Under the pieces are notes generated by a model, which was not told the DNA's origin, did no database searches, and worked only from the letters and a program-made list of their open reading frames with translations. Position numbers and translations under genes: made by a program. Shown in pieces: positions 27,718 through 55,556 of a DNA stretch of 64,000 nucleotides; the first letter of the stretch is position 1, and each line of letters opens with the position of its first letter. Source of the DNA: Natronomonas salinimetallica (GTDB lineage: Archaea; Halobacteriota; Halobacteria; Halobacteriales; Haloarculaceae); assembly GCF_013839515.1 (NCBI RefSeq), contig NZ_JACDNQ010000003.1, positions 62,001 through 126,000 of the forward strand. Direction: 5' to 3'.

Positions 27718-28971
27718 GTGAATCTGGTCACGACACGTACCATTACAGCGGCACTTACCAACGACCGTGAGGGTGTCGTGCGTGATCTTGATTCACTCGC
27801 TCGTTCCGGCAGTAAAATCTGGAATGTAGCTCGGTGGACCGCTGGCCGCATCTGGGACCACACCGGAGAAATACCCGATGAAGGACCGCTCAAGTCCTAC
27901 ATGAAGAACCAACAGTGCTGGAAAGATTTGAATGCCCAATCAAGCCAGGCAATCGTCGAAGAATTGGCTGGCGCTTTCCAGTCGTGGTTCGAACAAAACG
28001 ATCCAGACGCCAACCCACCGGGCTACCGCAAAGACGGCGATGAACGACCACGTAGCACGGTCACGTTCAAAGAAGACGGGTTCAAACTCGATACGAAACA
28101 TCAGCAGGTCCGTCTCTCGAAAGGCAAGAACCTCAAAGACGACTGGAGCGACTTCATCCTCTGCGAATACGACACTGGTCCAGACACAGACCTGACCGAC
28201 GTAGAAGACGTACAACAGGTCCGAACCGTCTGGAACGGCGACCAGTGGGAACTGCACTTCGTCTGCAAAGTCAGTATTGACGCCGCCGACTCGTCTGGTG
28301 AGAAGACGGCTGGTGTTGACCTCGGTATCTGCAACACTGCCGCTGTCTCCGTCGGTGACGAGACACTGCTGTATCCAGGGAATGCCCTGAAAGAAGACGC
28401 CCGCTACTTCCGACAAAAAGAATACGATACGGAAGGCGAAAACGGCCCCAGCAACCATGCTGAGTGGGCACGTCGAAAGAAATCACAGCGACAGGCTCAC
28501 TTCCTGCACGCTCTCTCGAAAGACATCGTCGAGCAATGTGCTGAACGTAGCGTGGTGACGATAGCGGTCGGGCATCCGAAGGACATTCGTGAGGATGAAG
28601 ACTGGGGGCGTCACGGGAACAAGCGTCTGCACGACTGGGCGTTTGAAACCCTGCTGAGTCACATTGAGTACAAAGCCGAACAACACGGGATTGACGTAGA
28701 GCGTGTTGATGAGGCAGGGCTGAAAACGTCGAAGACATGTTGTGTGTGCGGGATGAAAGCGGATTCAAACCGTGTTGAACGTGGCTTATACGTCTGTGAG
28801 AACTGCGACCTGGTCGCAAATAGTGACCTGAATGCGGCTGAAAATATGCGAAAGACGGTAACTCCGAGTCCGTCACAGGATAGGAGTAACGGCTGTCTGG
28901 CCCAGCCATGGGTCCGCCTGTTCGATAAACAGACGGGGAGCGTAGCCCCACAAGAACAGGTACGACCGTAG
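27718..28971 (+). CDS. tnpB: TnpB-type RNA-guided nuclease of an IS200/IS605-family element
   Basis: The 417-residue protein has the RuvC-like core: GVDLGICNTAAVSVGDE (first Asp), the region VVTIAVGHPKDIREDEDW where the second acidic residue normally sits, the zinc finger CCVCGMKADSN ... CENCD, and NSDLNAAENM (third Asp). The canonical Glu of the second motif is replaced by Gly-His, though Glu occurs a few residues on in IREDED. No tnpA is near, so this is a TnpB-only (IS1341-like) element. TnpB proteins are RNA-guided DNA nucleases using an RNA from the 3' end of their own element. Confidence 0.85.
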   Translation: MNLVTTRTITAALTNDREGVVRDLDSLARSGSKIWNVARWTAGRIWDHTGEIPDEGPLKSYMKNQQCWKDLNAQSSQAIVEELAGAFQSWFEQNDPDANPPGYRKDGDERPRSTVTFKEDGFKLDTKHQQVRLSKGKNLKDDWSDFILCEYDTGPDTDLTDVEDVQQVRTVWNGDQWELHFVCKVSIDAADSSGEKTAGVDLGICNTAAVSVGDETLLYPGNALKEDARYFRQKEYDTEGENGPSNHAEWARRKKSQRQAHFLHALSKDIVEQCAERSVVTIAVGHPKDIREDEDWGRHGNKRLHDWAFETLLSHIEYKAEQHGIDVERVDEAGLKTSKTCCVCGMKADSNRVERGLYVCENCDLVANSDLNAAENMRKTVTPSPSQDRSNGCLAQPWVRLFDKQTGSVAPQEQVRP

Positions 28972-29474: not shown

Positions 29475-29757
29475 ACTCCGAACACGGGGCGGTTCGATCA
29501 AAAGGGCGCCGGTCTCATATGGACTGCCGTCGCCGGGGAGTGTGCGGGCCGTCCACGGGACCGATGTGGCCGCTACCGGAGCGCCGAGACCCCGATCTGT
29601 TCGCCCCCGTCTCGTTGCCCCGGAGGCTGCTCCGGCGAGCCGGGAAGTAGCCGTCTACGCCGTCTCGGTCGAGCGGATGGGCGTCCTGATACTGACGGAC
29701 AAAAGAATGTACACACGACGCACGAGGATCACGCCGTTCGACGGAGCGAACGGCGGA

Positions 29758-29964
29758 TCACTCGTGAGTCGGTTTCATTTGATTTCGTCTACCGGTATGA
29801 ATCCACAGCGTCCGGCCCTCGAGGCTGGCCTCGCGGGCCCACTCACGAGCCGCCGCCTTCGAGTCGAACCGGCGGCGGTATCCCGATTCGGCGACCCACT
29901 CGCCGACCGCGCCGCTGACCCGTCCGGCGGAGGGTTTCGCGGCGACGACGTAGCTTTCTTCCAC
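29758..29964 (-). CDS. Small hypothetical protein
   Basis: The protein of 68 residues has a beta-beta-helix-like order: EESYVVAAKPSAGRVSGAV, then GEWVAESGYRRRFDSKAAAREWAREAS and RTLWIHTG. The SKAAAREWAR helix resembles DUF2188-like small proteins found in Haloarchaea. Its start is 13 bases from one end of the 107-bp MITE, which therefore lies in its promoter region. Confidence 0.6.
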   Translation of the reverse strand: MEESYVVAAKPSAGRVSGAVGEWVAESGYRRRFDSKAAAREWAREASLEGRTLWIHTGRRNQMKPTHE

Positions 29965-29976
29965 GTCGGAGCCTGA

Positions 29977-30083
29977 TACTGCCGGACGTACCGACGTGAA
30001 TCGGGCATCTCTGAGAGTCGTGTTACGGCACGGTTTCGTCTATCTAAACGATTCGGATATGTACGAAAGTACGTCCGGTAGTA
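29977..30083 (-). mobile_element. 107-bp MITE, copy 1
   Basis: The element starts TACTGCCGGACGTAC and ends GTACGTCCGGTAGTA, a 15-bp terminal inverted repeat with one mismatch, and is flanked on both sides by TGA, a 3-bp target duplication. In the opposite direction it is about 80 percent alike over its full 107 bases to the element at 52040-52146. It has no coding capacity, so it would need a transposase in trans. Confidence 0.85.
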
Positions 30084-51041: not shown

Positions 51042-51247
51042 CCGGGGTCCCGACGAGCGGATGGTACAGGTAGCAGACTACCCCCGGTCATCCGCCGGGT
51101 TTCTGCACCGGTACCGATTGCGGCATCTGAGTGTTGTATCTGAATCTAGAAAAGTCCAACGCCGAGCACCTGCCGCAGCCGAATCCGCACGCAGTTTGAA
51201 AGAAACGGGCAAGGGATTCAAGTCGTTTCCAGACAGATATTCCGTTG

Positions 51248-51541
51248 ATGTCGAAGACTGAGTATCGGATCGTCTCCGGCGAAGAATCGGAGATACACGA
51301 CGAGCCACACATCGAGGGGCGGCGTCTGACTGTCCGATTCGTTCACGATCGCGTCGAAGGGCGGGGGCTGGATCCGGGGACGGTCGCGGACCGGCACGAC
51401 CTCGACGTCGCCGACGTCTACCAGGCGTTGGCGTACTACCACGACCATCCGGAGGAGATGTCGAAGGTGGAACGTCGACGTCGCGAGGCGATCGAGCAGC
51501 ACGAGGATGAGTTAGTCGATCCTGAAGATGTCGAGTCGTAG
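51248..51541 (+). CDS. DUF433 protein, probable antitoxin partner
   Basis: ATG 51248 gives 97 residues. The DUF433 core is HIEGRRLTVRFVHDRVEGRG, then ADRHDLDVADVYQALAYYHD. Genes of this family are usually paired with a DUF5615 PIN-like gene, as here, with a 14-base overlap. By analogy with VapB this is the DNA-binding antitoxin. Confidence 0.8.
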   Translation: MSKTEYRIVSGEESEIHDEPHIEGRRLTVRFVHDRVEGRGLDPGTVADRHDLDVADVYQALAYYHDHPEEMSKVERRRREAIEQHEDELVDPEDVES

Positions 51542-51866
51542 CTACCGTATTCTGGCCGACGAGAACGTCGAGCGAAAGGCCGCACGCTATCTGGAGAAGC
51601 GCGGCCACGACGTGGAGATGGTCGTCGACGTCCTCGAGCCGGGCGTGACGGACGAAACGGTTGTCGAGTACGCGACCGAGACGAATCGCTTGGTACTCAC
51701 GGGCGATGACGACTTTCTGTCGAAGGGGTTCCCGACGCTGTTTCAGGAGGACGGCCAGATGTCCGCGTTCGAAGTCGCCGAAATCGTCGACGCCGTCGCG
51801 GACGCGATGTCGCAGTCGGATCTCGAACAGACTGGCGGGACGAAGCTCGTCGAAGGGTGGATCTAG
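51528..51866 (+). CDS. DUF5615 PIN-like protein, probable toxin partner
   Basis: The protein of 112 residues begins YRILADENVERKAARYLEKR and has LVLTGDDDFLSKG, the conserved acidic residues of the Mut7-C/PIN-like DUF5615 family. By family and position it is the toxin half of a toxin-antitoxin-like module with the DUF433 gene. Nuclease activity is not proven for this family. Confidence 0.8.
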   Translation: MSSRSYRILADENVERKAARYLEKRGHDVEMVVDVLEPGVTDETVVEYATETNRLVLTGDDDFLSKGFPTLFQEDGQMSAFEVAEIVDAVADAMSQSDLEQTGGTKLVEGWI

Positions 51867-51940
51867 AGGCCACCCGACTTTCTGGCGCTCTCGTGTCTGC
51901 ACGGAAGGGTGCGGTTCCTGAGACAGTAGTATGTATAAAC

Positions 51941-52494
51941 AGCTATCAAGAGTACGACACGGTCGTCGTTCGCGAGCTGTCACGGTTCGGTCGGGATCCG
52001 CTGACCGTCCTCCAGGACGTCGAGGAGATCGTCGATTCATACTGTCGGACGTAATTTCGTGAATACCTGAATCGTTCAGATAGACGAAACCGTACTGTGA
52101 CACGACGCTCAGAGATTTTCGATTCAAGTAGTTACGTCCGACAGTATCAGACACGGAGTTCGTTTCGATCACCGAGGACTTCGACACGTCCTCGGCGATG
52201 GGCAAGGCCTTCGTCCGGATCGTCGCCGTCATCAACGGGATGTACGCCGATCTTCGCCGCGAGCAGGCAGTGCGGGCTGCTGAACGTCGACGGGAGAACG
52301 GCGAACCGGTCGGCCGTCCCAAGAAACTGAACGATGAACTGCGGGCTGAGGCCTTCGACCTCCGGCGGAAAGGCGTCAGCTACCAAGCTATCGCCCGTGT
52401 CGTCGAGTCGAAGCCGAACGCGCCAGAATCGATCAGTCGTGAGACGATCCGGCGGTACTGTAATGAAGCCGATGTGACGCCGACAGAAAACTAA
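51941..52494 (+). pseudogene. Serine recombinase remnant split by a MITE
   Basis: The left part (to 52039) encodes YDTVVVRELSRFGRDPLTVL and EEIVDS, and the right part (from 52147) continues in frame EFVSITEDFDTSSAMGKAFV and ends with a helix-turn-helix (YQAIARVVESKPNAPESISR). Together they are the C-terminal two thirds of a resolvase/invertase of the serine family; the N-terminal catalytic serine region is missing. The 107-bp MITE with a TCA target duplication sits between them; removing the element and one TCA joins the frame exactly. The gene is dead. Confidence 0.8.
52040..52146 (+). mobile_element. 107-bp MITE, copy 2, inside the recombinase remnant
   Basis: Terminal repeats TACTGTCGGACGTAA (52040-52054) and TTACGTCCGACAGTA (52132-52146) are perfect inverted copies, and TCA flanks both ends. 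Length and interior match copy 1 (29977-30083, opposite direction). The identical target TCA in both sites suggests a preference. Confidence 0.9.
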
Positions 52495-53501: not shown

Positions 53502-54596
53502 TCACTTGATGGATTCAACCATCTCTGTGAAGGCGGTCTTATTGGACTGATTGGCCCGCATATCGTTCAAGAACTTGCCAACGGCTTCGAGGAAGAAGAC
53601 TCGCTCGACGTCGTCAACAAGTTTCAGAGAGCTAATGAGTTCATCGGGAGTAATGAATATGAGTTCGATAGGTGCATCTTCCGCTTCTTGATGAGCATCA
53701 CCTTCCTCTCCCGGTTTGAATCCTGCACCAAGGACGTACAGATATTCACCAAGTTCGTTTATACGCCCCTTCTCGATAGCGTGTTGAACTGAACTCTGGG
53801 TGGCTGGTTTGTCCTTAACTTCCATCGCCTTGTGCAACTCATCATTGTAGAAGATTTCAACGTCACCTGCCGCCTTCGAGAACTCGTCAGAGACATTAGC
53901 GTGTTCGCAGTCTACTCGCCAATCGCCTTCGCCCGCGTGTTCGTAGTAGGTCTGCATAATACCTGCAACGACAGCAGGTAGACGCTCCCCGTTACCTGAC
54001 TCTCGCAAATACTCTCTGATTTTGAGAGCGATTACGTCGTATGGTGCGTCAGATGGTGACTCGAACTCGACCGTCTTCGATTCCAATTCTGAGACTGCTT
54101 GCAGGGTCTGCCGAAGAATGTCGGTTGGGTCGAGTTCTCCCTCTTCGACTTGTTCTTGCATCCGTTGTAACAATTTGTAGAGCCGTTCTTGCTTCTGACT
54201 TGAGCGGGCGCGATTGCTGGTATCAACCTCAGGATGACGAGCAGGATTGTTCACGAAGGGTTCAGGGCTTCCCCCAAGACGCTCACCGTGCCCTTTTTCC
54301 CAAGGAACCAGAGCATCGTGTGCGACAGAACGTGCATCGTATGCCCCACCAAGTGAAGAGCCTGCCTGCAAAGCCCGGTAGTGGATGTTTGGGTTAACCG
54401 CCTTCGAGAGTGCGGCATTCACCAAGATGTAACGATACGTCTTGTTGGAGTCGGTTAGAACTTCCTTGATTTTCGTCCGAACAAGGTCGTTGTCTATGTA
54501 TTTTGTTTGGTCATCAGATTGAACGTTTTTCCATTCTCGGTTCAGAATCTTCGAGGCTTCCTCAGAACTGACATTCTCTTCCGCCAAGTTAGACAC
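53502..54596 (-). CDS. Type II restriction endonuclease, SacI-like
   Basis: The protein of 364 residues resembles the SacI restriction endonuclease family: the middle has YDARSVAHDALVPWEKGHGE, then LGGSPEPFVNNPARHPEVD, a block I associate with that family, and AAGDVEIFYNDELHKAMEVK gives Asp and E-x-K of a PD-(D/E)XK centre. SacI cuts GAGCTC; the site here is not known. The methyltransferase gene at 54672 is 75 bases upstream on the same strand and likely cotranscribed, giving a complete restriction-modification system. Confidence 0.65.
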   Translation of the reverse strand: MSNLAEENVSSEEASKILNREWKNVQSDDQTKYIDNDLVRTKIKEVLTDSNKTYRYILVNAALSKAVNPNIHYRALQAGSSLGGAYDARSVAHDALVPWEKGHGERLGGSPEPFVNNPARHPEVDTSNRARSSQKQERLYKLLQRMQEQVEEGELDPTDILRQTLQAVSELESKTVEFESPSDAPYDVIALKIREYLRESGNGERLPAVVAGIMQTYYEHAGEGDWRVDCEHANVSDEFSKAAGDVEIFYNDELHKAMEVKDKPATQSSVQHAIEKGRINELGEYLYVLGAGFKPGEEGDAHQEAEDAPIELIFITPDELISSLKLVDDVERVFFLEAVGKFLNDMRANQSNKTAFTEMVESIK

Positions 54597-54671
54597 CGAG
54601 ACGTACTTCTAATATAACGCATAAATGTCATATATCGCAAAAAAGCGATATGAAGGGAAAAACCGATATGA

Positions 54672-55556
54672 TTACTCGTCTGACGCCTCGGAAAGCGTTT
54701 GTTGATTAGCGTCTTTGTCGAGACCGGGATTTACGTCACGGTTCGGAGGTTCGTAATTCAACCAGAGACTCTCCTGCCGCTTGTCTTTCGTCGTGTGCAT
54801 CGTCTTCTCCTCGGCGTCAACACGGTTCCAACCGTAATCCTCGAAGACTTCTTCATACAGGTCACACTTGTATCCCGAGACAGCAACTTTCCCCTCTGCG
54901 TTCCGAAGAACCTCGGCTAATTCCCGGTGTTCCTCATCACTCATCTCGTGACCATACGAGTTAGTGTCTCCTCTTGTTCCGTGCGGATATGGTGGGTCGC
55001 AGTAGAACAAGGCGTCTTCATCATCGTGGCGCTCAATAACCTCAATAGCCGGTTTGTTCTCGATTTGAACTCGACGGAGCCGGTCTGCAACGTCGTATAG
55101 TTGTTCGAGTCTTCCGTGCCACCGTGAAACTGCACCGGACATATCTCGACGCGAGGTTGATTTGCAGTATGCCCATCGTCCGGGCGTTGCTTCTTGGGCC
55201 AATCCAGAGCGCGTCTGACCTGCACGGACGAAGAACAACCGAGCCTGCTCCATATCGCTTAGTTCATCGTTGTCCTTCTGCTCGACTGCGTGAGCGAGTT
55301 CTTCACGGCTAAATGGAGTGAGTGCTATCTTTTCGAGAAGTTCATCTCGGTTCTCACGGAGAACCTTGAAGAACGTCACCACGTCCCCGTCTAAATCGTT
55401 GTACGTCTCTACGGGGCTTGGTTCTCGGTTGATTAGAACTGCGGCGCTTCCGCCAAATGGCTCTATGTATTGGTGAGTCTTCGGGAGCTGTGCCAGTATA
55501 AAGTCAAGATGACTGTATTTACCACCGTACCAGCGGAATGGAAGCGCCTTACCCAT
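54672..55556 (-). CDS. D12-class DNA adenine methylase, restriction-modification partner
   Basis: The 294-residue protein has the Dam/D12 motifs: LPFRWYGGKYSHLDFIL (motif X), YIEPFGGSAAVLINREP (motif I) and FYCDPPYPHGTRGDTNSYG (motif IV). It methylates adenine N6 and should protect the site of the endonuclease encoded next to it. It differs strongly from the D12 enzyme at 13280 apart from motifs. It is the first gene of the operon, followed by the endonuclease and the regulator. Confidence 0.85.
   Translation of the reverse strand: MGKALPFRWYGGKYSHLDFILAQLPKTHQYIEPFGGSAAVLINREPSPVETYNDLDGDVVTFFKVLRENRDELLEKIALTPFSREELAHAVEQKDNDELSDMEQARLFFVRAGQTRSGLAQEATPGRWAYCKSTSRRDMSGAVSRWHGRLEQLYDVADRLRRVQIENKPAIEVIERHDDEDALFYCDPPYPHGTRGDTNSYGHEMSDEEHRELAEVLRNAEGKVAVSGYKCDLYEEVFEDYGWNRVDAEEKTMHTTKDKRQESLWLNYEPPNRDVNPGLDKDANQQTLSEASDE

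Follow-up and report, generated by a model that had tools for sequence, protein, structure and literature searches.

A 107-bp MITE in a truncated serine recombinase gene of Natronomonas salinimetallica and its like-ended relatives in haloarchaea

A serine recombinase gene interrupted by a short element

The window examined here is a stretch of 64,000 nt from Natronomonas salinimetallica (NZ_JACDNQ010000003.1, positions 62,001-126,000, forward strand), and coordinates are those of this window unless a contig is named. It includes the remains of a serine recombinase gene that is divided into two parts by a 107-bp insert. The features of this locus, each with the evidence used to assign it, are as follows.

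51935..52039, + strand: portion of the invertase/resolvase-type serine recombinase that precedes the insert, truncated at its 5' end; Pfam Resolvase match, Gin alignment and a search of the window for the N-terminus
52037..52039, no strand: left copy of the target-site duplication, TCA; sequence and copy comparison
52040..52146, no strand: family-A MITE, 107 bp; sequence, repeat search and about 17 genome copies
52147..52149, no strand: right copy of the target-site duplication, TCA; sequence and copy comparison
52150..52494, + strand: recombinase remainder, comprising the end of the catalytic domain, a linker and the HTH_7 DNA-binding domain; Pfam, PHROG and Gin alignment

The sequence and the repeat search agree with a preliminary description of this DNA regarding the 107-bp length and position of the insert, its perfect 15-bp terminal inverted repeats (TIRs; TACTGTCGGACGTAA and TTACGTCCGACAGTA) and the presence of TCA on both sides. 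Longer inverted arms of 26 nt exhibit 88% complementarity. Given that shuffled sequences yield only ~1.5 TIR matches per whole window even when 3 mismatches are allowed, the two exact copies that bound the insert are far above chance expectation. The insert is non-coding, and at 107 bp it is too short for a transposase gene.

When 110 bp are deleted (the element and one TCA), the flanks meet in frame as GAT-TCA-GAC, and the reading then remains open to the stop at 52494. The joined protein matches the Pfam Resolvase family at positions 57-144 (1.8e-14) together with HTH_7, and also matches a PHROG DNA invertase family (5.6e-25). Moreover, it aligns with residues 51-167 of an invertase that we take to be Gin (the aligned chain is named only 'DNA-invertase' in its table), 117 to 117 residues, without a gap through the junction. 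Thus, the open joined frame, the domain matches and this continuous alignment bear out the proposal that the insert lies within a serine recombinase gene.

The same gene lacks its 5' third, corresponding to the first ~50 residues and including the catalytic serine. The alignment with Gin begins at residue 51, and a full-length relative (35% identical) finds matches in the window by its C-terminal part only, with none for its N-terminal part, which supports the 5' truncation noted in the preliminary description. The nucleophilic serine of serine recombinases sits near residue 10, and therefore the loss of this region indicates that the recombinase would be inactive even if the insert were removed. 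As read from the sequence, the gene would be a non-working recombinase with or without the element. The further suggestion that the element struck an already mobile or decaying gene is correct insofar as the truncation is real, but the truncation may either precede or follow the insertion.

Directly upstream, overlapping DUF433 and DUF5615/PIN-like genes at 51245-51866 resemble a toxin-antitoxin-type pair. On the minus strand at 53502-55556, a DNA adenine methylase-like gene adjoins a 364-aa gene that may encode its restriction endonuclease.

We also considered whether 52150-52494 survives as a small DNA-binding protein in its own right, in which case the MITE would occupy a leader rather than a dead gene and the insertion would be neutral. 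A 98-aa open frame starting from an ATG at 52198 does span the HTH domain. However, this ATG falls within a conserved stretch of the catalytic domain, the TSSAMGKAF motif, and four other genome copies have exactly the sequence of the element, which argues for a recent insertion. On balance, we regard a neutral insertion as improbable, and we favour interruption of a recombinase gene.

The preliminary description also stated that precise excision restores the reading frame. Although this is true of the joined sequence, any unaltered insertion with a target duplication will restore the frame on removal, and so frame restoration does not constitute evidence that excision occurs; we found no sequence evidence for excision of the element. 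On sequence grounds, the restored frame shows the entry of the insert into an open frame and not its departure. An empty site could not be located among 97 relatives because the recombinase gene is absent there, with no orthologue beyond a 28% match. Plasmids and viral contigs likewise yielded no orthologue, and one gammaproteobacterial relative is 35% identical. We therefore took the empty-site proof from MITEs nested in other MITEs, which requires no sister strain.

Genome copies, target-site duplication and nested insertions

The genome of this organism (2.78 Mb, 30 contigs) carries about 17 copies of the element, which we term family A. These include 11 intact copies (98-100% identity), four that contain 10-N assembly gaps, one that is interrupted by another element, and one with 82% identity. 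An exact 3-bp TNA duplication borders every intact family-A copy, and TAA, TCA, TGA and TTA are all represented. Given that all four middle bases are found, the duplicated middle base is more than a part of the inverted repeat. The outer site preference is a symmetric YTNAR over 35 elements of several families, a set picked by a pattern demanding matching TNA flanks; thus the evidence for flank matching comes from the copies found by BLAST, which are free of that demand.

Runs of N are present inside five MITE copies, indicating that these repeats break the assembly and that apparently truncated copies may be artefacts. Near the start of contig C3 (L096, 75-190), a 23-bp unit that joins TCA to the final 20 bp of a family-B MITE end is repeated five times head to tail, forming a tandem array of a transposon end.

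Two additional MITEs are located within the window, where they are separated by 180 bp.

29690..29797, no strand: family-B MITE, 108 bp, right end slightly degenerate; TGA on both sides
29977..30083, no strand: family-A-like MITE, 82% identical to 52040-52146; TGA on both sides (+ strand)

These elements flank and enter a small minus-strand open frame (...ESYVVAAKPSAGRVSG...), the 3' part of which is interrupted by the family-B element. Nearby, at 27718-28971, is a gene for a 417-aa protein that resembles TnpB (IS605 OrfB) and carries a CxxC zinc motif.

Family B has the same ends as family A and an unrelated interior. At C1:197484-197703, a 108-bp family-B element resides inside a family-A copy, and removal of the B element and one TGA leaves a family-A sequence with 0/107 mismatches. 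Similarly, at C12:120645-120867 a family-A element lies inside a family-D element, and removal of the A element and one TTA leaves a family-D element of 107 bp that differs from another D copy at 8 of these positions. Because the host element is restored in this manner, these nested insertions prove both the element ends and the length of the 3-bp duplication. Together with the genome copies and their TNA flanks, they substantiate the identification of the insert as a MITE flanked by a duplicated TCA.

Given that a single strand of the 107-bp element folds well (z = -5.4), we weighed whether these bases might instead constitute a structured regulatory or RNA element. This fold is predicted by the TIRs alone, however, and a search of Rfam with the 107-bp element returned no match. 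Copies of the sequence are scattered over unrelated sites, every one with a TNA duplication of its own, and elements are nested in one another. A regulatory or RNA element is therefore extremely improbable, and by every structural measure applied the element is a MITE: it is short and non-coding, has TIRs and a target-site duplication for each insertion, and is present as many dispersed, near-identical copies.

Elements with the same ends in other haloarchaea

Families A, B, D and others have in common the ends TACTG ... CAGTA, adjoined by GGAC or CGGAC, and a length of ~107-108 bp, whereas their interiors differ. A search pattern, TNATACTGNCGGACNNA, occurs at least 95 times in the N. salinimetallica genome, compared to 0 for the reversed control. 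The same pattern is present in at least 36 of the 195 haloarchaeal genomes of the order sampled, while its reversed form gives only 0-1 matches per genome. Natrialba magadii is evidently among the pattern-bearing genomes, as the contig coordinates in one of them equal those of plasmid pNMAG01. Related 108-bp elements are carried by plasmids of Natribaculum, Natrononativus and Natronorubrum; no elements of this kind were found on plasmid PL47.

Among the matches listed, 55 paired-end spacings fall mostly into a few size classes, namely 78 bp (8 pairs), 98-100 bp (17), 106-108 bp (22) and 165-167 bp (5), and the other three pairs are spaced at 55, 74 and 82 bp. In five genomes (G088, G114, G121, G157 and G167), elements of ~78 bp and 165-167 bp are bounded by the same ends as those of 108 bp, sometimes within one genome. 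We dropped the idea that element lengths follow helical turns, as the size classes do not fit a 10.5-bp period.

Search for a parent insertion sequence

We consider it very probable that 52040-52146 is a non-autonomous DNA transposon (MITE) that inserted in a serine recombinase gene, which also lacks its 5' third, and that a DDE transposase would have moved in trans. The element lies at a TNA target, in this instance TCA, that is duplicated on both sides. Sister copies inserted at many other TNA sites in the same genome over multiple rounds, and family-B elements entered family-A elements by the same TNA rule. As searches of this genome and of relatives yielded no autonomous element with these ends, we infer mobilisation in trans. 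The putative transposase would bind the common ends (TACTGNCGGAC and adjoining bases) and would make 3-bp staggered cuts at TNA, as in the IS1031 and IS427 branches of the IS5 family, for which a 3-bp TNA target duplication is characteristic.

The preliminary description had suggested looking for a full-length insertion sequence (IS) with the same terminal repeats, and none emerged from this genome or the relatives searched. No inverted pair of these ends at IS distance is present among the matches listed for 195 genomes and five plasmids. These ends are lacking from all four PF01609 transposase loci in this genome and from 30 such loci sampled in four MITE-bearing genomes (34 in all). PF13586 is absent from the N. 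salinimetallica genome, and PF13359 is absent from 12 MITE-bearing genomes. Most of the unpaired ends examined in this genus and in four other genomes either belong to short elements whose other end has diverged or are truncated remnants, and none of those examined led to an IS. BLAST searches of plasmids with families A and B and the Natrialba element returned short elements or truncated ends only, and a search of literature text for the TIR letters returned unrelated papers only.

Two types of match were set aside. A weak pair of ends located 1927 bp apart was rejected as chance because the proper 78-bp partner is present at that place, and 25 single-end matches from a pattern search of viral contigs were taken as likely chance.

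These results bear on whether the element is moved by machinery not recognizable as IS4/IS5-type, such as that which mobilises the small mobile repeats (SMRs) of Haloquadratum, so that a classical parent IS would not exist. The absence of these ends from all 34 PF01609 loci sampled, the absence of PF13586 and PF13359 from the genomes searched for them, and the failure of any examined unpaired end to lead to an IS are all in its favour. Likewise, the classes of ~80 and ~110 bp are reminiscent of the SMRs, the mobilisation of which was called enigmatic (PMC3119063). In contrast, the SMRs were reported to make no target duplication (PMC3119063), whereas every intact copy here has one, and a strict 3-bp TNA duplication is a mark of known IS5-family DDE transposases. 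The parent search covered three transposase families (PF01609, PF13586 and PF13359), using searches and targeted stretches in the N. salinimetallica genome and the matches listed, and therefore a parent IS with these ends may still exist. We thus judge the involvement of such machinery to be unlikely, and retain a DDE transposase acting in trans as the preferred explanation.

The insertion at 52040-52146 is itself ordinary, and more interest attaches to the group of like-ended elements. Roughly one in five of the sampled haloarchaeal genomes carries members of this group, which agree in their ends, fall into a few fixed lengths and have unrelated interiors. We offer only as a tentative proposal, doubtful at present, that these tiny transposons, with TACTGNCGGAC ends, a strict TNA duplication and lengths of ~78, 99, 107-108 and 167 bp, form one superfamily across the haloarchaea that would be moved by a not yet recognised transposase and would have no classical autonomous partner.

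Comparison with known systems

Like the Gin and gamma-delta serine recombinases, the interrupted gene encodes the catalytic core (from residue ~51 onwards) and an HTH domain at the C-terminus. It differs from them in that some 50 N-terminal residues, the catalytic serine among them, are missing and its frame is broken by the insert.

The element resembles prokaryotic MITEs (PMC3119063; reviewed in PMC10969869) in being short and non-coding, in having TIRs, a target-site duplication and many dispersed copies, and in its insertion into genes and other mobile elements. However, the MITEs of Haloquadratum walsbyi were defined by ends related to those of known transposons (PMC3119063), and we found no IS with matching ends. 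Consistent with an origin from the IS1031/IS427 branches of IS5, the TNA target duplication is common to both; in contrast, TACTG ends were not associated with an IS5-type transposase gene at the sampled PF01609 loci or in the PF13586 and PF13359 searches.

By description, the elements resemble the Haloquadratum SMRs, which include SMR-A (~110 bp) and HqIRS41 (80 bp) (PMC3119063), in lengths near 110 and 80 bp, in inverted ends for which no transposon partner was found and in insertion into other mobile elements. Given that the absence of target duplication reported for the SMRs does not hold for the intact copies described here, we do not assign the element to the SMRs. A like-ended group for which our searches found no parent IS provides a concrete search target, and may help to explain the enigmatic small mobile repeats of Haloquadratum.
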